Virus record (IMG/VR): IMGVR_UViG_3300030329_002067
Coordinates: 1 to 51,728 of that record
Reading direction: 5' to 3' (one strand)
DNA from: a virus
Length of the DNA stretch: 51,728 nucleotides
Below are positions 6,783 to 51,728 of the stretch, one piece after another. Each line of letters opens with the position of its first letter. The stretch's first letter is position 1. The notes under the pieces are model-generated. The model had not been told where the DNA came from and did not search any database. It saw only the letters and a list, made by a program, of their open reading frames with translations. Made by a program: the position numbers and the translations under genes.

Positions 6783-7997
6783 ATGGCGAAAGCAGGAGAC
6801 TTCGGAAGGAAGATGAGCGGTGAAGCCCGTAAAGAGTTTGAGCGCAAACTCGCAGACGACTTCATCTCACAAATCAAGTCCGGCGAGGTTGGTGCTTGGA
6901 GTTCCGGTTGGACTAATCTCGGAGGAGCGGCAATGCCTCATAATCCGAAAGGTCGTCCATACTCAGGCATAAATACGGTCATACTATGGCTTAGAGGTTT
7001 TGATTATAACTCTAATACATGGGGGACCTATAACGCTTGGAAAGAGGTTGCGAGGAAACACGCAATAAAAGAGGGCAATTTTGAGTTAAAAGTTGGCCGA
7101 GACGGAAAACCCTACAAGCACACAACCGAGTGGTTTGGAGTGAAAAAAGGTGAAGAGGGAACGAATATCATTCTCTGGAAACCGCTCACTTACAAAAGCG
7201 AGAAGGAAAATAAAACGACAGGCGAAATGGAGACAACCATAGGCACGACAATGCTTATGCGAGTCTTTACGGTATTCAACCGTGACCAAACAGGATTACC
7301 TGAGATTATCACAGATACCGAGTTAGAAGAAGCAGAGGACTTCAATAGACCAGAACAGGAATTGGAGAACTGCCTAAACTACTATATTGAGAAACCAAAT
7401 AGGAAACTCATAGGTGTTGGTGAGATTTTACCATCAGGAGAAAAAGCCGAAGAACCCGAGTGGGTTATCAAGAGCGGGGAAATCTTGCTCAAACACGGCG
7501 GGGATAGAGCGTTTTATACATCTGGTCGCGATAGGATAGCACTTCCTCTTCGCGAGCAATTCAATTCTAATGCGAGATACCTATCTACTAAGGGGCATGA
7601 GATTATCCATAGCACAGGTCATCCACTTCGACTTAACAGAAATCTTGGAAACTCTTTCGGGAGTGAAGATTATGCTAAAGAGGAGTTGATTGCCGAGTTC
7701 GGAACAGCGTTCCTCATCGGCTCATTCGGCATACAAGGAGAACTTCGCAATGTTGAGTATATCAATAATTGGGCTTCGGTCTTGAGCAAAGAACCAAGAT
7801 TCCTCATTACGGCGGCTCAAAGGGCGCAGAAAGCGGTCAATTATGTTCTTGACCCTTGGCTCGAACACGAGGTATGGCGTGAGCAAGAAATGGAGGTTTT
7901 GGCTGAGAAATTAGAAGGTAAGACCATCGTGATTGAGGAACAGACACTTAACCGACTACACGGAGAACTTCACGATTTGAAGGAGGAAGAAGAATGA
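6783..7997 (+). CDS. ardC: ArdC-like antirestriction protein with zincin domain (404 aa)
   Basis: ArdC-family proteins combine an N-terminal ssDNA-binding domain with a zinc-metallopeptidase domain and protect incoming DNA from restriction. The N terminus here (FERKLADDFISQIKSGE, W..P, GRPYSGINTVIL, YNAWKE) is typical of the ArdC N domain. The zincin signature is HEIIHSTGH at about residue 271, with a downstream EELIAEFG that supplies a glutamate ligand. Its own shared-element promoter and probable leaderless start fit an immediate-early protein that meets host restriction first. The acidic end overlaps the next gene by ATGA. Confidence 0.88.
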   Translation: MAKAGDFGRKMSGEARKEFERKLADDFISQIKSGEVGAWSSGWTNLGGAAMPHNPKGRPYSGINTVILWLRGFDYNSNTWGTYNAWKEVARKHAIKEGNFELKVGRDGKPYKHTTEWFGVKKGEEGTNIILWKPLTYKSEKENKTTGEMETTIGTTMLMRVFTVFNRDQTGLPEIITDTELEEAEDFNRPEQELENCLNYYIEKPNRKLIGVGEILPSGEKAEEPEWVIKSGEILLKHGGDRAFYTSGRDRIALPLREQFNSNARYLSTKGHEIIHSTGHPLRLNRNLGNSFGSEDYAKEELIAEFGTAFLIGSFGIQGELRNVEYINNWASVLSKEPRFLITAAQRAQKAVNYVLDPWLEHEVWREQEMEVLAEKLEGKTIVIEEQTLNRLHGELHDLKEEEE

Positions 7998-11794: not shown

Positions 11795-12158
11795 ATTAGC
11801 GGGTAGTTTAATTCTTTTTATTCTTTCAATCCCCTACTGAAATAATAACAGGGGCGTAGTGCATCGAAACTCCGTATATATTTTATTTCGTGTAGGGTAT
11901 TTATCTACTCTACTGTCTCGTGTGTAGTGTCTATACATCTACATAGGGAAATAAAAGAATTAGTCCAGTAGGGGCGTAGTGCATCGGTTTATTCTTTTTG
12001 TAGTCTACAGAAATAATAAAAAGAATTAATTTGGTGCAAAGGTTCTTAAGTGGATGGTGTATCTGAAGGCCATAAGCCGCACATTGCTAACGAGCAGAAC
12101 AACATTTAGAGATATTAACAACATGAAGGAGATTAACAATTAACGAAGTGGCTTACCA
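11795..12158. other. AT-rich repeat region, candidate replication origin
   Basis: A 364-base gap without a convincing gene. AGGGGCGTAGTGCATCG occurs twice (11850-11866 and 11970-11986), exactly 120 bases apart. CCCCTACTG (11831-11839) is inverted as CAGTAGGGG (11966-11974). AATTCTTTTTATT (11810-11822) is inverted as AATAAAAAGAATT (12015-12027). AT-rich sequence and many GTAG/CTAC steps lie between. It sits just before the MCM-like gene, as iteron-type origins often do. The left T-rich tract may also end transcription of the upstream operon. From 12038, AAAGGTTCTTAAG looks like a promoter. Confidence 0.55.
12043..12050 (+). promoter_or_regulatory. Candidate promoter TTCTTAAG before the MCM-like gene
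   Basis: AAAGGTTCTTAAG at 12038-12050 is identical over 13 bases to a minus-strand promoter candidate at 49066-49078. A start near 12071 would give a leader of roughly 85 bases to the gene at 12159. Confidence 0.4.
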
Positions 12159-13496
12159 ATGGTGAGCAAAATGGATATTTTTCAATCAACACAAAATTAC
12201 TGTGACCTTAACTATCTGATAGACTTAGAGGATAAGATACCTATATTCTTATGTTCTGTTGGCTCGCATATATTCAATTCTATGAACAAGTGCGCTACCT
12301 GCGATTTTACAGAAGGCGAAGAGTTTGTAATCGAACCCTGCCCTATGAGACACCCCAATGCGCCATTCTATACTCCCGGAGCAAGAGCGGCCGACACACG
12401 CCTACACATATTAATGAGAGGCATGAAAGGTTCGGGTAAATCAATCCTAATCGACACATTCTTAGCACAAGGCACGGGTCTTCTTTGGAACGCTAAAGGA
12501 TTCAAGGGAGAGGGCTTCCGAACCATGATAGGTCCTAATAGCGTGACCGAAGCAGGTATGTTTGGCTCGGTAAATGAAGATGGTATTATAGTGGGGCGAC
12601 CACTTGCGCGCGAGATGTGTGGGGGATTCTTAGGTTTTGAAGAGTTCAGCACATTGGTTGATGCGGGGAATAAAGACCATAGCACCGATATGATGAATCA
12701 AATGCTAACCTCAACAGATAATGGTCGTGTTAATAAATCTATGCGAAGTGGTTGGGTGAGATATACAACCCGATATACCGTATGGGGAGGAACTCAGCCC
12801 GGTCGTTTTGAATTAGAATCCGGCCTTGATAGGAGATTTTTCATAATAGATATAGACATGAACCCTGAGAAGGAATTAGCATTTAAGAGGGCAAACCAAA
12901 AACAAGCAAATATGCCCCACGAAAGAAGGCTCAAGATTCATAACCTTAGAGAAGCGATTAGAAAGTTTATGATGGAACGGCAGATGGAGGCTATATTGAA
13001 TCCCCCTGTTCAAGTGCGCTTCGGTCAAGATGTTCAAGATTGGTTAGAAAATAAAGATGTTCGTTCATGGGAGGCAGACTTATTCCGCCGACTTATGTTA
13101 GGGTATTATATGATGCAAGAAGAGTATAATCCTATGCCCGTTTTTGAGATTAAGATAGACGATAAATTAAGAAAGTTTCTTGATGACGCACTGAGAATGC
13201 GAAGAACCGTGATGGATGCAGATATGGAGTTAATCAAATCAACATTTTGGGGGCGCGACCTTCCTAAATCAACATTGGTTAAGGAGGTTGCTAAGATGGT
13301 CACTAACGGGGATTATCAATCAGCGAAGCGTTGGATAGAGGAATCATTAGAAGGTAATTCGTGGTATCGTGAGTTTAAGGCGCAGAAGGAAGGTAGAGGA
13401 AGAAAAGGGATTATGTGCCGAATAGGTTATGAACCTCAACCTGTTCGCAAGAAACCAGAGTTGAATTGGGGCGAGTGGCAGGAGGCCGAGACATGA
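12159..13496 (+). CDS. MCM-like AAA+ ATPase, probable replicative helicase (445 aa)
   Basis: Likely unwinds DNA at the viral fork. Walker A GMKGSGKS lies near residue 88, a Walker B-like GGFLGFEEF near 155, and an arginine-finger region SGLDRRFFIIDID near 219, the order and spacing of MCM ATPase cores. An N-terminal Cys/His cluster (CATC, CPMRH) could bind zinc, and the C terminus carries a probable winged helix (KSTLVKEVAKMV). It is shorter than cellular MCM and lacks an obvious full N-terminal OB domain. Position beside the candidate origin fits. Another AAA+ helicase class remains possible. ATG 12171 is an alternative start. Confidence 0.65.
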   Translation: MVSKMDIFQSTQNYCDLNYLIDLEDKIPIFLCSVGSHIFNSMNKCATCDFTEGEEFVIEPCPMRHPNAPFYTPGARAADTRLHILMRGMKGSGKSILIDTFLAQGTGLLWNAKGFKGEGFRTMIGPNSVTEAGMFGSVNEDGIIVGRPLAREMCGGFLGFEEFSTLVDAGNKDHSTDMMNQMLTSTDNGRVNKSMRSGWVRYTTRYTVWGGTQPGRFELESGLDRRFFIIDIDMNPEKELAFKRANQKQANMPHERRLKIHNLREAIRKFMMERQMEAILNPPVQVRFGQDVQDWLENKDVRSWEADLFRRLMLGYYMMQEEYNPMPVFEIKIDDKLRKFLDDALRMRRTVMDADMELIKSTFWGRDLPKSTLVKEVAKMVTNGDYQSAKRWIEESLEGNSWYREFKAQKEGRGRKGIMCRIGYEPQPVRKKPELNWGEWQEAET

Positions 13497-17204: not shown

Positions 17205-17398
17205 AAGAACCAGTGAAAATGAAATGGAGCCTTATGCAAACAGGACAAGATTACGAATGTTATTTCTGTAATGTTGTAATAGATGACCCAGAAGGTATTA
17301 TCTATTATAGAGCGAAAACTTCCTTCCGATGGGAGTCCGTTCCTGTGTGCGAACAATGCTACTATGTTGCAGAAGAAGTAAGAGGGTGGTTTGAATGA
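17201..17398 (+). CDS. Small zinc-binding protein (65 aa)
   Basis: CYFC and CEQC pairs 38 residues apart form a four-cysteine zinc site of a treble-clef type. The start at 17201 overlaps the previous stop (ATGA). It is coupled by ATGA to the clamp-loader gene and may be an accessory of that complex or of the preceding wHTH protein; no direct evidence. Confidence 0.65.
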   Translation: MKEPVKMKWSLMQTGQDYECYFCNVVIDDPEGIIYYRAKTSFRWESVPVCEQCYYVAEEVRGWFE

Positions 17399-18312
17399 AA
17401 GTAATATGGGCTGAAAAGTATCGACCTAAAGTGTTGGATGAAGTATTATCACAGGATGCGGTAGTATCTGAAATGCGAGCGGTGGTTAATGGTGATGCAC
17501 CTATGCAACACTTCCTCTTTCATAGTCCAGAGCCGGGTAGTGGTAAAACCACTATGGCGAGGGTTATGGCCGAAGAATTAGGTTATCAACTCCATGAGTT
17601 CAATGCTTCGACTAAGAAACAAAGGGGGATAGATTTTGTCGAAGATGATATATCCCCTATGTCTCGTATCGGTCAATGGGAAACTATTTTTCTCCTTGAT
17701 GAAGCCGATAGGATTACACCGACTGCACAAGACGCTTTGAAAGGTGTTATTGAGAATGCACAGGGATATTTCATATTGACCTGCAATGACTTAAACAAAG
17801 TGAGTCCTTGGCTCAAATCGAGATGCCAAGTTAGGACCTTCAAACCTATACCCGATGATTTGGTAATGGAGAGACTTAAGCATATCTGTGTTCAAGAAGC
17901 GGTGGAAATGACCGAAGAAGATTTGTTAATAATTATTAACAAGCATGGCGGGGATATGAGAAATGCAATAGGCGCACTTCAAGCGGCCTCTTATCTATCC
18001 CCTATTGATAGACAACAGTTTATCTCTTCTATTAGTGCGCCCGACATTGATGCAGGCAAAGTGCTAACATTACTGACCAAGAACCATGATGTTCAATCAG
18101 CCGTTGATTTACTATCTACTACGCCTGCGCGCGAGGCAATACACCATGTATTCTTGAAAGCGGTAGATGCTAATATGAGTAACATTCCATTGAAGATGCT
18201 TGTTGTTGAGGGGGCAATACAGGCACGCCGAGATATCATAAATGGCGTTCCCGAATCTTATGTAGTATGGGAGTTTTGCAGATTTATTAGTGAATCATGC
18301 AAATGCTTATAA
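17395..18312 (+). CDS. rfcS: Clamp loader ATPase, RFC small-subunit type (305 aa)
   Basis: It loads the sliding clamp onto primed DNA. The opening WAEKYRPKVLDEVLSQ is the RFC-box signature. Walker A (PGSGKTT) is near residue 46, Walker B (LLDEAD) near 99, a sensor region (ILTCNDLNKV) near 128 and the SRC motif (KSRCQ) near 140. The length is close to that of archaeal RFC small subunits but slightly short. No large subunit is seen, so the loader may be a homo-oligomer or use the host large subunit. Clustered with the clamp, ssDNA-binding and polymerase genes. Confidence 0.93.
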   Translation: MKVIWAEKYRPKVLDEVLSQDAVVSEMRAVVNGDAPMQHFLFHSPEPGSGKTTMARVMAEELGYQLHEFNASTKKQRGIDFVEDDISPMSRIGQWETIFLLDEADRITPTAQDALKGVIENAQGYFILTCNDLNKVSPWLKSRCQVRTFKPIPDDLVMERLKHICVQEAVEMTEEDLLIIINKHGGDMRNAIGALQAASYLSPIDRQQFISSISAPDIDAGKVLTLLTKNHDVQSAVDLLSTTPAREAIHHVFLKAVDANMSNIPLKMLVVEGAIQARRDIINGVPESYVVWEFCRFISESCKCL

Positions 18313-21619: not shown

Positions 21620-22807
21620 ATGAGTATCGAAAGACACATTATTAGAACACCGCTAAAGGAGCGTTATGGCGCACCACCTTTCAGCATACTCGATGCCCGA
21701 CAGGGTTATTGGCAGGACCGAAAGCGTTGGTGGACCCGTAAAGGCATCCGGTCTGAATTAGGCAGGGGCGAGGCACTTATCGCTATGTCTAAGTCGAACA
21801 TGAAGTATATGTTCGGTAAAAAAGAGTATGATGTTGACCAATTACAGAAGGAGGGTATTCTTCTAAGTGATGAGGAAGTGGCTACCGGTGGTGATTCAAA
21901 AGGGAGTGCTAAGACATTCGCTATTGGAGATAAAGCAACATGGAATGCTGAACAAGAAGCAAAGAAAGACTTAAGAGCAATTCCGGGAGGCGGGACAGGT
22001 AAAAATAGTGCTTGGCTCCATAAGAAAGAAGATGGTTCGATGGGCGCGGCTCTTCAAGATGAAGATGCTTTCAAGAATAGAGCAACCGGCACTTCGATAT
22101 TTGACCCTGTGCTAACTGAGTTAATGTATGATTGGTTTTGTCCCGATAATGGTAGCATTCTTGACCCGTTCTGTGGTGGTTCAGTTAGGGGGATAGTAGC
22201 GGCTCATGGTAATCATCAGTATGCAGGTATGGAGTTGCGTTCTGACCAAGTACAGGCTAATAGGATTCAAGGATTAGAGATTTTAGGTAATACAGACTAT
22301 CCTATGCCTAATTGGGTTGTTGGAGATGCTTTAGACATTCAAGAAAAGATTGGAGACAAATGGGATATGATTTTCTCATGCCCCCCGTATGGTGACCTTG
22401 AGGTATATTCAGAAGATGATAGGGACTTATCCACTATGGAACATCATGAGTTTCTCGATACATACCGCACCATCATTCAGCGTTCTGTTGAAATGCTCAA
22501 GGATAATAGATTTGCAGTATTCGTTGTTGGAGATTTTAGAAATGAAGATGGCTTCTATCGTAATTTTGTTAGCGACACTATTGACGCATTCCAATCAGCA
22601 GGTGCTACACTATACAACGAGTGTATTCTAATAACCGTTGCAGGTAGCCTTCCAATTAGAGTCCATAAACAATTTGCTAACAACCGCAAACTCGGTAAAA
22701 CACATCAGAATGTGCTTATCTTTTTCAAGGGCGACCCAAAGACTATACAGGATGAGTTCCGTTATCTTGATGTTGAAGATAAGACTGAGGATGTCGAATG
22801 GCTTTAG
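21620..22807 (+). CDS. DNA amino-methyltransferase (N6-adenine or N4-cytosine), ending VEWL (395 aa)
   Basis: It transfers methyl groups from SAM to DNA bases. SAM-binding motif I is ILDPFCGGSVRG (about 178) and the catalytic motif IV is SCPPY (about 252), so motif I precedes IV. The N terminus (PPFSILDARQGYWQDRKRWW, then KGIRSELGR) is typical of phage-encoded orphan methylases. No restriction enzyme is adjacent. It ends DVEWL, like the polymerase and the downstream GNAT-like protein it overlaps by ten bases. Probable roles are protection from host restriction and possibly post-replicative marking. Confidence 0.85.
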   Translation: MSIERHIIRTPLKERYGAPPFSILDARQGYWQDRKRWWTRKGIRSELGRGEALIAMSKSNMKYMFGKKEYDVDQLQKEGILLSDEEVATGGDSKGSAKTFAIGDKATWNAEQEAKKDLRAIPGGGTGKNSAWLHKKEDGSMGAALQDEDAFKNRATGTSIFDPVLTELMYDWFCPDNGSILDPFCGGSVRGIVAAHGNHQYAGMELRSDQVQANRIQGLEILGNTDYPMPNWVVGDALDIQEKIGDKWDMIFSCPPYGDLEVYSEDDRDLSTMEHHEFLDTYRTIIQRSVEMLKDNRFAVFVVGDFRNEDGFYRNFVSDTIDAFQSAGATLYNECILITVAGSLPIRVHKQFANNRKLGKTHQNVLIFFKGDPKTIQDEFRYLDVEDKTEDVEWL

Positions 22808-23760
22808 ACTTTAGCGAGTTCGTGCCTTTAACAATAGATAATTACAGAGCCTTTAGGAATGGGCTTTATCGTGCCTACCGGCATCCACGATACTATCAAT
22901 CCCCGCTTAGGTTAATGCACCAACCCCATGTGTTCAAGGTAGGGTATGTTGATGATGACTTGGTCGTTCTGAAAGACAGACAAATAATGGGAACACAGGT
23001 TCTCTATTCTATACTGCCCCCTAATAATTGGGAGGTTATAGAACGATTAACAGAAGGAGGTGTTCCCTGTTTTCTAAGTGATGAAGATGTATTCAACGCT
23101 CCTAAGAAACACGGTCTTATTCCTGTGAAAGACAACATAGAGTATGTCTATCATCTTTCTGCTTTCTCAGATAGATACGGGGTGAATAAGAATCAACTTA
23201 GAAGGCCATGTAATAAGGCTGAGTCGCTTCGCGAGTCGGGCGCGATTACTATTGAAGCGCATTGGGGCAATGTTCCCTATGAAACGCTTGAATCATGTAA
23301 TACTTTGACCGCCAAATGGTTAGGGCAGAGGAATAAGAAAGCATGGAAACCTAACTTCTTTATTGACTCGTTCAATGCTTATTCTAAATTAGAAACTTCT
23401 CTTCTTCTGACTGTTATGCAGGGGGATAGATGCTTAGGCTACCACCTATCACATAGGGTATGTAATGGTTTAATCTATGATGTGGCCTGTAAAGATTATG
23501 AGGACACACCGATTAAGGATATGACCCCTGTCCTTCTTCACTATGCTTCTAAGGCGTGGGCTGAGAAATACCCTTCGCAGGTTGAATACACAAGGGTTAA
23601 TAGAGGAGCGGCAGTTAGGGGTGCTTCGAGTAAAACTGCTAAGGACAAACTAAGACCGCTATTGAAGAATCAGATATACAAGACAGTTCCTCCTATCAAA
23701 ATGACTAAAGAATTGAAATCATCATACTTTGAAGTAAAGCGTAATGTCGAGTGGTTATAG
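22798..23760 (+). CDS. GNAT-fold-like protein, possible base or lipid acyl/aminoacyl transferase (320 aa)
   Basis: It overlaps the methyltransferase gene by ten bases and also ends in VEWL. The pattern of an N-terminal substrate segment and a C-terminal half with RCLGYHLSHRVCNGLIYDVACKDYED and MTPVLLHYASKAWAEKY resembles double-GNAT or LPG-synthase-type (DUF2156-like) acyltransferases. Phage GNAT-fold enzymes such as Mom modify DNA bases, and the coupling to a DNA methyltransferase makes a DNA-modification role attractive. Fold assignment is by eye and tentative. Confidence 0.55.
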   Translation: MALDFSEFVPLTIDNYRAFRNGLYRAYRHPRYYQSPLRLMHQPHVFKVGYVDDDLVVLKDRQIMGTQVLYSILPPNNWEVIERLTEGGVPCFLSDEDVFNAPKKHGLIPVKDNIEYVYHLSAFSDRYGVNKNQLRRPCNKAESLRESGAITIEAHWGNVPYETLESCNTLTAKWLGQRNKKAWKPNFFIDSFNAYSKLETSLLLTVMQGDRCLGYHLSHRVCNGLIYDVACKDYEDTPIKDMTPVLLHYASKAWAEKYPSQVEYTRVNRGAAVRGASSKTAKDKLRPLLKNQIYKTVPPIKMTKELKSSYFEVKRNVEWL

Positions 23761-24654: not shown

Positions 24655-26856
24655 GTGATAGTGGATAGCATAGGTTCGAGACGCATAGCAGTTAGGTATC
24701 GTGACCCGATTACACTTGACCGCAAACAAGATATTATAGACGACATATATCCTTATGCTTTTCTTCGTGAAGAAGAGGCAGATTTAGTTAAGGCCGTTAA
24801 GAAAGAAGAGGGCTTCAAAGGTGCTTATGGGGAACGATTGACTAAGGTTACTCTAAGGGACCCATTTGAAGTTAGCGATTTAAGAAATAAGTTTTCTCAG
24901 ACATGGGAAGCACAAATACCTTTCACTAATAGAGCCTTAATTGATAGTGGAAAACATTACGACTTTTACAAGCACCGTGTTTGGTATGTTGACCTTGAAT
25001 GGAATGATAGGGAAGAGGTAACTGTTGCGACTGTGTATGATAATTACATGGGGAAATACCTAACATGGTTTGTATCGCCTCCCGGTCAAAACCACCCACC
25101 ATTAGTCAGACAGTTAGGAGATAGAGTATTCAACCCACCGCTAAAGTCATTCAAGACCGAAAAGGAATTACTCGATGATTTCTTTCATGTGATGATGAAG
25201 AAGGACCCCGATGTATTGACCGGTTGGTTCTTCATGGGTGCTGATATGAAGGTCTTATTTGATGCGTGCAAGAGACACAATTGGAATGCAGGTAAGCGTA
25301 TGAGCCCTCATGGTTCTGTTCGCTATCAGTTTGACGACTATTCACAATGTATCAAGGGCAGAATTACTATTGACCTTATGACTGTATTTTGCAGGTTATG
25401 GCGTGTGAAGAACGGACAACTACCGGGTCAAAGTCTGAAAGATGTATCGCAGTTTGTTTTGCAGAATGACGAAAAGTTTGACCTTGAAGATGGTCACGAT
25501 ACTTATTACACGGACTTAGGTAGATACATAGACTATAACATACAAGATGTCGCTTTGTTGCCTAAATTGGATAAGATGCTTAATTGTATCGACCACTTTC
25601 TTAATCTTCAACATATTGTGCAATGTGATTTCATTACCACTCCTTGGGTCACAAGATTAGCAACCGTCCTTCTGTTAAGAGATGAAGAGTTTGATAGAAG
25701 GATTCCAACTAAGCCCCAATTCCCTTATGAGGATTATCAAGGTGCAGATATACAGGAAGCGGTAGCAGGTTTGTATGAAAGCGTCGCCATTATGGATATA
25801 CGAGCAATGTATCATAGTAATGTGGTTAAGTATAACATATCATGGGAGACTATTCTTAACGAACAGGAGGGGATATTTGATACAGATGCCCCAACGGGCG
25901 CATTAGGTCGTGCTATGAACCTACTTACCGACTTAAGAAATGAATACAAGGCTAATATGAAGGCTTCGACAACCAAAGAAGAAAAGGTTAAGTGGGATTC
26001 GGCTCAATACGCCACGAAGTCATTAGTTGCATCCCTTTATGGAGTGTGTGGTGATAGCCGATTCGGTATGTATCACCCTGCGGTAGCGGCGGCGATTACT
26101 CGCACATCAAGAAATACGCTTGGTGAATTACGAGACAAGTGTATAGAATGGGGTTGTGATGTTATCTATGGTCATACTGATTCAGTTTTCGTATGTGTTG
26201 AATCCCCAGAGGCCGGTATGGAAATGATGAATTGGATTAATGAAGAAATGGCTCCGATAGAAACTGAGTTTGAAAAGTATTGTGAGCGTATGTTGCTTAA
26301 GGCTAAGAATAGATACGCAGGCAAGGTCACATGGACTGATGGTTCTTATCACGAACCCGACTATTATGTGAAGGGGATTGAATCTAAACAAGCACGAATG
26401 CCTCAGGTAATGAAGGACGCTATGAATACTACAATAAACTCTATGCTTGATGGTAAATCTGAACAATGGGTCAATGATAGACTAACTAATCTTATCCACG
26501 ATATGGTCGATGGTAAAGTATCATTAGACGACTTGAAGATGAAAGGTAAATTGAAGAAGGACCTAAAAGATTATAGGACCATAGCAGGTTCGGCGGCTGG
26601 AGCAATGTGGGCTAATACCCACTTAGGAAAAGAATATCGCAAGGGCTCTTACTTTTGGGTGCTTCTCGATAATACCGGCAGGTTTATAGCATTTGACTCT
26701 ATCGCAGAACTACCTAAGACAGTTGCGATAGGGTATGAGGTGATGATTCAACGATACATAATAGAAAAGGTCAAACCTTTTTATGAAATAGCATCGTGGG
26801 AAATGAGCCAATTGCATGACGCAATGAAAGGAAGGAAAACAGTAGAGTGGTTATAA
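24655..26856 (+). CDS. polB: Family B DNA polymerase with 3'-5' exonuclease (733 aa)
   Basis: It copies the viral genome. Exonuclease motif I is YVDLEW (about 110), a motif II region is GWFFMGADMKVLFD (about 189), and motif III is YIDYNIQDVALL (about 291). Polymerase motif A is MDIRAMYHSN (about 379), motif B KSLVASLYGVCG (about 454) and motif C IYGHTDS (about 503), which has His where the family usually has the first Asp of DTD. The C terminus is TVEWL; archaeal PolB enzymes often end with a clamp-binding motif containing a WL pair, so this tail may bind the viral PCNA. Leaderless GTG start. Confidence 0.95.
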   Translation: MIVDSIGSRRIAVRYRDPITLDRKQDIIDDIYPYAFLREEEADLVKAVKKEEGFKGAYGERLTKVTLRDPFEVSDLRNKFSQTWEAQIPFTNRALIDSGKHYDFYKHRVWYVDLEWNDREEVTVATVYDNYMGKYLTWFVSPPGQNHPPLVRQLGDRVFNPPLKSFKTEKELLDDFFHVMMKKDPDVLTGWFFMGADMKVLFDACKRHNWNAGKRMSPHGSVRYQFDDYSQCIKGRITIDLMTVFCRLWRVKNGQLPGQSLKDVSQFVLQNDEKFDLEDGHDTYYTDLGRYIDYNIQDVALLPKLDKMLNCIDHFLNLQHIVQCDFITTPWVTRLATVLLLRDEEFDRRIPTKPQFPYEDYQGADIQEAVAGLYESVAIMDIRAMYHSNVVKYNISWETILNEQEGIFDTDAPTGALGRAMNLLTDLRNEYKANMKASTTKEEKVKWDSAQYATKSLVASLYGVCGDSRFGMYHPAVAAAITRTSRNTLGELRDKCIEWGCDVIYGHTDSVFVCVESPEAGMEMMNWINEEMAPIETEFEKYCERMLLKAKNRYAGKVTWTDGSYHEPDYYVKGIESKQARMPQVMKDAMNTTINSMLDGKSEQWVNDRLTNLIHDMVDGKVSLDDLKMKGKLKKDLKDYRTIAGSAAGAMWANTHLGKEYRKGSYFWVLLDNTGRFIAFDSIAELPKTVAIGYEVMIQRYIIEKVKPFYEIASWEMSQLHDAMKGRKTVEWL

Positions 26857-50210: not shown

Positions 50211-51728
50211 TCACCCCACGAAGAACCATGTATTAGCGGCGACACAAACATAGGTTCTCGCTTTATCGTCAGATATGGCGGTGTGGCTACTTGGGATAGT
50301 GCTATTACTTGTCCCAAGACCGGGAGTAAGGTCTGAGCCTGTATTGTTAATGATAGTGTATTGTTGACCCACTTCTGCGGTTGCGGGTAGGGTAGGCGCA
50401 CCGCTACTTGTGCAATACACATACGAACCCGATTGTTCATCTGTTAATGTTGTCGAACCTGTGACCGCAACAACACTAATTTTGTTGGCTACTAATCCGT
50501 TAGCATTTCCTTTGAACCAAGTTACTCCACCATCACCGGAAGTTATCAATAATTGGTTATCACCTGTGGGGTCAGAAACATCACCACTACCGATAACTAA
50601 ATTGTTTGAGCCGGTTGTTATGTTATCCCCTGCTTCTGAACCAATACAGGTATTCTTGTCGCCAGTGGTCACTAAATATGCGGCTCGATAACCTATGGCG
50701 GTGTTGTAATCTGAACCATCATCGGGTGTGTATAGAGCCTGTCTTCCTATGGCTATGTTATAATTAGCACTTCCATTGATTGCATACAAAGCACTATCGC
50801 CAATACCGATATTGTAATCTCCCTCAAATGTTCCATCACCGCCATAAGTAGGCATATCTCCTATGAATACATTTTTCGTAGCACTTGCAGTTCCTCTTGC
50901 TCCGGCCCCATAACCAATACAAACTGAATTAGTGGATAAAGACCAAATACCCGCCCAAAAACCAAGTGCGGTAGAGCCGAATCCTATATTTTTACCGGCA
51001 GAAGAACCAACGGCAACTACCCTGCTATCTGTGCTATTAGTTACTCCGGCCTGTTTTCCAATAAAGACTGAATCTGTTGCTGTGGTTATTGCAGTTCCGG
51101 CAGACCACCCTAATGCAGTATTATTCATCCCGCTGGTCAAAGCATCTAAGGCTTGAATACCAACACCTGTGTTATAGACCGCACTACTTAGTGTTCCATG
51201 ATTTTGATGCCCTAACAATAGACTACCCGTAAAATCCGTTCCGCCGGACTTACCATCTGTTAGGTCGTCTATATCACCGGCAACCCCACTTGGGCCAGTA
51301 GGACCTGCGGGTCCCGTTGGACCAGTAGGACCAGTGGGTCCTGCGCTTCCATCTGAGCCGTCACTACCTGCTGGACCTGCCGGTCCGGTGGGGCCAGTTG
51401 GTCCCGTAGGACCTGTGCTACCGTCAGAACCATCACTACCCGCAGGTCCGGCTGGTCCCGTTGGACCAGTTCCTCCTGTTGGTCCGGTGGGGCCGGTAGG
51501 ACCGGTTGCACCAGTAGAGCCTGTTATGTCTGCAATTTCAGACCATGAGCCCGATGCTTTCTTGTAAATCTTATCGTTGCTTGTATTGAAGTGGAAGTCT
51601 CCGTTTGAACCCCCACTTGGGGTTGTATTGCTTGAAGTCCATGTTGCTCCATCTGCTCCCGCAGAACCGTTGCTTCCCGATGGTCCGGTTGGACCTGTCG
51701 GACCAGTAGGGCCAGTAGGACCTGTGGG
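50211..51728 (-). CDS. Collagen-like and YadA-head-like fibre protein, 5' end outside window (at least 505 aa)
   Basis: The frame is open from the right edge of the window, so the start is missing. The visible N-terminal part has Gly-X-Y collagen-like runs ([22 protein letters not shown]) that form trimeric stalks. From about 51220 leftward, short repeats such as [24 protein letters not shown] and NTAIGYRAA match the beta-roll repeats of YadA-head and trimeric autotransporter-like fibres. A C-terminal beta domain ends in WFFVG. A host-binding fibre or spike is the natural role. Confidence 0.85.
51288..51522 (-). repeat. Tandem collagen-coding repeats
   Basis: Two nearly identical cassettes encode [20 protein letters not shown]-type units back to back, and further Gly-Pro-Thr units occur at 51665-51728. 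The DNA repeats are imperfect (GGTCC/GGACC/GGCCC variants), which suggests selection on protein with room for slippage or recombination that changes stalk length. Confidence 0.8.

Follow-up and report, generated by a model that had tools for sequence, protein, structure and literature searches.

A conserved intergenic element heading the replication genes of a probable archaeal tailed virus is a candidate replication origin

The current analysis identifies a 222-bp intergenic block (11808-12029) at the head of a run of replication genes in an uncultured virus. Judged from its sequence, this block appears to be a cis-acting DNA control element, and we consider the replication origin of the virus to be its most likely role, albeit with less than even confidence. 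A preliminary description of this DNA had also proposed an origin here. Its proposal is partly supported: bounded conservation, unique repeats, an easily melted tract and a suitable position favor it, whereas there is no skew shift and the neighboring gene is not detectably MCM. Beyond the existence, conservation and origin-like character of the element, we infer its mechanism.

The window, i.e. the whole stretch of DNA analyzed, is the complete IMG/VR virus record IMGVR_UViG_3300030329_002067 (51,728 bases). Its family B DNA polymerase (PolB) is closest among phage records to that of HVTV-1 (23% identity) and hence to haloarchaeal tailed viruses, and archaeal-looking BRE/TATA-type promoters occur upstream of the element; together, these features suggest that the source is probably an archaeal tailed virus. 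The terminase of a relative has its best matches among bacterial phages (24% identity). The collections searched yielded only six related records, and three of these (L003, L004 and L007) contain the full element, yielding four full copies for comparison, two of which are nearly identical. A fifth relative, L005, has only the right part of the element, because its contig begins inside it. The related record G002 (IMGVR_UViG_3300030104_003872) carries a nearly exact repeat of ~98 nt at both ends (approximately bases 1-98 and 75193-75290) and runs colinearly with the window if circularly permuted. Its circular map of ~75.2 kb implies that the window is without roughly 23 kb, including the likely portal, capsid and terminase genes. 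IMG/VR searches with the 18-mer CCCCTACTGAAATAATAA, the gapped pattern GTGTAGGGT...CTACATAGGG, the right-hand block and a back-translation of WGGTQPGRF all recovered these six records and otherwise only chance hits. Two further records (L011 and L012) were rejected as homologs, as they have the 18-mer alone in common within unrelated contexts, as was L038, which matches neither the window DNA nor its translation. GTDB genomes yielded no match for protein or DNA; in phage records, no protein matched at E <= 10, and the DNA matches were short and attributable to chance. Elsewhere, the window encodes an ArdC-like antirestriction protein (ArdcN plus zincin, 6783-7997) and a protein (22798-23760) matching the phosphatidylglycerol lysyltransferase C-terminal domain, while its right end (51267-51728, minus-strand reading) consists of collagen-like Gly-Pro-rich repeats; long, repetitive fibre-like genes occupy the matching place in G002.

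The features of the element and its immediate surroundings are as follows.

11808-12029, no strand assigned: candidate origin of 222 bp, an intergenic control element conserved in relatives, from alignment and record hits
11808-11848, plus strand: left arm of the outer inverted repeat, 78% complementary to 11989-12029, overlapping the invariant 27-nt run
11811-11819, plus strand: ATTCTTTTT, copy 1
11824-11850: invariant 27-nt run TTTCAATCCCCTACTGAAATAATAACA, from alignment of relatives
11834-11845, plus strand: box 1, CTAC-T-GAAATAA, from pattern search
11850-11866, plus strand: first 17-mer AGGGGCGTAGTGCATCG, conserved core RGGGCGTAGT, from motif search and relatives
11883-11895, minus strand: box 2, CTAC-AC-GAAATAA, from pattern search and relatives
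11939-11954, plus strand: box 3, CTAC-ATAGG-GAAATAA, from pattern search and relatives
11970-11986, plus strand: second 17-mer AGGGGCGTAGTGCATCG, from motif search and relatives
11983-12032, no strand assigned: candidate unwinding site, the 50-bp tract with the lowest stability in the element, from nearest-neighbor stability
11989-12029, plus strand: right arm of the outer inverted repeat, from repeat search
11991-11999, plus strand: ATTCTTTTT, copy 2
12005-12016, plus strand: box 4, CTAC-A-GAAATAA, from pattern search and relatives
12018-12026, minus strand: ATTCTTTTT, copy 3
12151-12167, plus strand: hairpin GCTTACC-AAT-GGTGAGC, just 5' of the start codon of the 12171 gene and covering its likely ribosome-binding site

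The intergenic gap holding the element had been placed at 11795-12158; its start is correct, whereas its end rather falls at 12170, since the start codon common to the relatives is located at 12171. The element begins and ends where its own outer inverted repeat does. Two nested inverted repeats reported earlier, CCCCTACTG/CAGTAGGGG (11831/11966) and AATTCTTTTTATT/AATAAAAAGAATT, are indeed present and proved to be parts of longer 16-nt and 41-nt inverted repeats. The element further contains two GGGCGTAGT cores as well as all three ATTCTTTTT copies of the window. As originally described, two identical 17-mers lie exactly 120 bases apart (11850 and 11970). They are direct rather than inverted copies and occur nowhere else in the record, even at 3 mismatches (0.06 expected). 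Among the relatives, the site, the core and a spacing of 118-120 bases are all conserved, and the strict part of the 17-mer amounts to RGGGCGYAGT with a trailing CG in most copies; the exact identity of the two 17-mers does not extend to the relatives and is apparently a feature of the window's lineage. The pattern CTAC-N(1-5)-GAAATAA has four matches in the window, all of them in the element within 183 bp (three plus, one minus), versus an expectation of 0.21, which is descriptive because the pattern was picked post hoc, after viewing the sequence. Four of the five copies in G002 are likewise inside the element. In the AT-rich tract at 11983-12032, stability is so low that a mere 0.06% of the window's 50-bp positions are less stable. 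On sequence evidence, what look like repeated protein-binding sites adjoin an easily melted tract.

The conservation of the element is both high and sharply bounded. Identity to the window is 99%, 83% and 79% in L003, L004 and L007, respectively, which is about the same as that of the neighboring gene (97%, 87% and 79%), and the longest invariant run is 27 nt in the element versus 20 in that gene. In comparison, identity is 83%, 44% and 30% over the 118 bases preceding the element (30-45% in the two divergent relatives) and 97%, 59% and 39% over the 121 bases on its downstream side. Furthermore, the upstream gene of L004 and L007 is a different gene from that of the window. As the upstream gene has been swapped while the element is retained, the element travels with the downstream genes, and its position at the head of the replication-gene run is kept though upstream genes change.

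A location directly 5' of the replication run is equally what one would expect of a promoter or operator of the replication (middle) operon, in which case TATA-like GAAATAA(T/A)AA boxes together with sites for a viral transcription factor would drive the genes from 12171 onward and replication would start elsewhere. We regard this as a possible but somewhat doubtful explanation. The boxes do resemble BRE plus TATA, and a conserved short word, GCAAAGGTT (12036-12044), roughly 22-30 bases past box 4, could mark a transcript start. The genes upstream possess a promoter/operator family of their own, comprising five exact copies of ACTCAAGAGT (an ACTC-AA-GAGT inverted repeat) at window positions 832 (minus), 911 (plus), 3686 (minus), 6736 (plus) and 9057 (plus), each followed within a few bases by a GAAATGTTTATA-type BRE/TATA box and several with GTAG-containing leaders. 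This ACTCAAGAGT plus GAAATGTTTATA family spans ~0.8-9.1 kb and is not represented by any intact copy at 11.8-12.2 kb, so that the replication run, if it has a promoter of its own, would have to use a different one. Conversely, a 222-bp stretch bearing four boxes and extended, nested inverted repeats exceeds the usual size of a promoter, several other promoter-bearing gaps match the relative over only ~30-75 bases, and the boxes are found at no other gene of the window.

The region also has considerable folding potential. Relative to dinucleotide shuffles, its single-strand fold has a z of -4.4 on the plus strand and -4.3 on the minus strand, and the element is the top plus-strand fold outlier among the window's GC-corrected 220-nt tiles. 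Alignment-based folding (alifold) gives z values of -5.2 on the plus strand and -5.5 on the minus strand, with conserved pairing that beats column shuffles on both. One interpretation would be a structured RNA, i.e. a plus-strand folded leader of ~220 nt, or a separate RNA, regulating the replication operon. In its favor are the plus-strand z values, three compensatory pairs, an excess of G-U over A-C (11 vs 3) among the departures from Watson-Crick pairing in the plus-strand window structure, and the separate hairpin on the ribosome-binding site. However, the minus strand folds as significantly, and pairing that is significant on both strands is as expected for conserved DNA inverted repeats. 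The compensatory double changes (3 of 65 pairs among four full sequences, with 5 of 500 shuffles scoring as high) all come from L007. Using Watson-Crick-only structures from the window, changed pairs that are still paired number 10 of 18 in L007 and 4 of 11 in L004, none of the latter being compensatory. The G-U excess is itself partly compositional, given the abundance of G and T on this strand (the G x T product is 1.4 times A x C). There was no Rfam match at the gathering score and no tRNA, and since the sequence upstream of the element is not conserved, a separate RNA would lack a conserved promoter there. Nor are the 17-mers explained by RNA pairing, as they are direct copies with a common invariant core. 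The covariation and G-U pattern would accordingly lend weak support to an RNA, which we consider unlikely. In five records, the hairpin at 12151-12167 occurs once per genome and in an identical position, with a varying loop; it suggests control of translation of the 12171 gene, possibly as a translational operator.

Returning to the replication origin as the favored role, several tests were aimed at origin-specific signatures. GC skew had been set beforehand as a criterion that could refute an origin, and neither an extremum nor a change in strand asymmetry was found at the element. On the circular 75-kb G002, the skew minimum is at ~38.5 kb and the maximum at ~69.0 kb, with the element at 51.0 kb being neither, while fourfold-site skew of plus-strand genes is about equal upstream (-0.094) and downstream (-0.068) of the element. 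The skew extremes of G002 coincide with the change in main gene direction; skew in this genome follows gene direction, and not every viral origin has a skew shift. The earlier impression that the region resembles no archaeal ORB is borne out by a motif scan, in which no ORB expression from the literature stood out at the element. For the common motif TCCA[CG]T[TG]GAAA[TC][GA]AAGGGGT, from the motif list of PMC4164010, the best site in the element matches 12/20 and 98 window sites score higher. The Cdc6_C domain (PF09079) was not found in the six related records at E <= 10, although orc1/cdc6 could come from the host. Taken together, the skew, ORB and Cdc6 results argue against a standard archaeal chromosomal origin and leave skew without value as evidence for an origin here, whereas a viral origin appears compatible with them.

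The replication run following the element includes three genes of particular relevance.

12171-13496, plus strand: opening gene of the replication run, encoding a P-loop ATPase of 441 aa with Walker A GMKGSGKS, recognized by motif with no family match
17395-18312, plus strand: clamp loader small subunit, same run, phrog_168 at E = 1.4e-44
24655-26856, plus strand: family B DNA polymerase, same run, PF00136 at E = 2.2e-33

The first of these had been described as MCM-like, for which profile searches, including a genome-wide one with PF00493, gave no support. Profile searches with the 12171 protein gave no significant match in Pfam, PHROGs, NCBIfam or PDB sequences, and neither the window nor the six relatives gave a match to PF00493 (MCM) at E <= 10. 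At a loose threshold, Pfam returned weak hits only (DUF6762, E = 0.02; AAA_29, E = 0.05), and a halovirus MCM used as a comparison likewise produced only a sub-threshold hit. The MCM likeness is confined to the Walker A motif and a GGTQPGRF...DRRFF stretch, read by eye. AlphaFold2 modeling of the protein with six close homologs yielded a mean pLDDT of 39.6, making the model too poor for a fold search. From its sequence, the product is best called an unclassified P-loop ATPase.

Another conceivable role is that of a DNA packaging start or a recombination site. The circular map of G002, with its ~98-nt end repeat, indicates that the genome may be circularly permuted, gene content shifts right upstream of the element, and the contigs of three of the six relatives (G003, G004 and G006) end at window equivalents 11943, 12146 and 12222, which is within or just 3' of the element and borders the variable upstream region. 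Contig ends can nevertheless stem from strain variation upstream, the likely terminase large subunit gene of G002 (29.9-31.4 kb) is ~20 kb away from the element, and no integrase was present among the window proteins scanned, all of which renders this role quite improbable. A mobile element with terminal inverted repeats was also considered and rejected, given that each genome has a single copy and that all relatives with the element have it in the same position.

As a candidate origin, the element exhibits parallels to several known systems. In lambda-type (O protein) and other iteron-type origins, short repeated sites lie by an easily melted tract near replication genes. The element similarly has several short repeats next to such a tract and close to replication genes, but its sites, unlike lambda-type iterons, do not form an evenly spaced tandem array; they are spread across the 222 bp, face both ways and are nested within long inverted repeats. 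In archaeal chromosomes, origins at which Orc1/Cdc6 binds ORB sites are intergenic and contain an AT-rich tract and repeated sites (PMC4164010, PMC3528665). The element shares an intergenic location, an AT-rich tract, repeats in both orientations and adjoining replication genes with these origins, but differs from them in having no special ORB score, no Cdc6_C in its relatives and no skew extremum. The origin of the pleolipovirus SNJ2 is a short hairpin downstream of the rolling-circle nickase Rep-Arvir (PMC13107129). Like the element described here, it combines conserved inverted repeats with an adjoining replication gene, and SNJ2 is an archaeal virus, as ours presumably is. The present element, however, precedes a P-loop ATPase gene, and the virus encodes PolB and a clamp loader of its own. 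The magroviruses (Aoguangviridae, Apasviridae) and haloarchaeal Druskaviridae are tailed, encode PolB (and clamp loader) and transcribe replication and virion genes oppositely (PMC10768690, PMC12999244). Our virus resembles them in PolB, clamp loader and opposite replication and virion transcription, the magroviruses being compared by description only, whereas its circular map (~75.2 kb) is smaller.

On balance, an origin is favored by conservation equal to that of a coding gene and far above the flanks, by boxes and 17-mers restricted to the element in the window, by the clamp loader and PolB following in the same run and by equal pairing potential on both strands, while the lack of a skew extremum, of ORB and of Cdc6_C in the relatives count against it. 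In such an origin, a virus-encoded initiator, possibly the adjoining P-loop ATPase or another protein of the run, would bind the repeated boxes, and the inverted arrangement could let the bound proteins bring the two ends of the element together. The AT-rich tract at ~11983-12032 would then be opened, and the opened site would load a helicase and the viral polymerase. A role as promoter, operator or leader RNA would produce a largely similar pattern, and a promoter region or a leader RNA accounts for the data almost as well as an origin does. Combined promoter and origin roles are possible. A dual-purpose promoter-origin of a new type, in which a plus-strand transcript (~220 nt) folds and primes replication (an R-loop origin) and an adjacently encoded P-loop initiator of a new family recognizes the element, strikes us as a long shot.

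In the ICTV profiles examined here, marine archaeal tailed viruses are described with replication genes but with no mapped origin (PMC10768690, PMC12999244). The sharply bounded element and its conserved ATPase neighbor constitute a concrete candidate origin/initiator pair. If the element is instead a promoter region or a leader RNA, it would define the control of the replication operon in this group of viruses.
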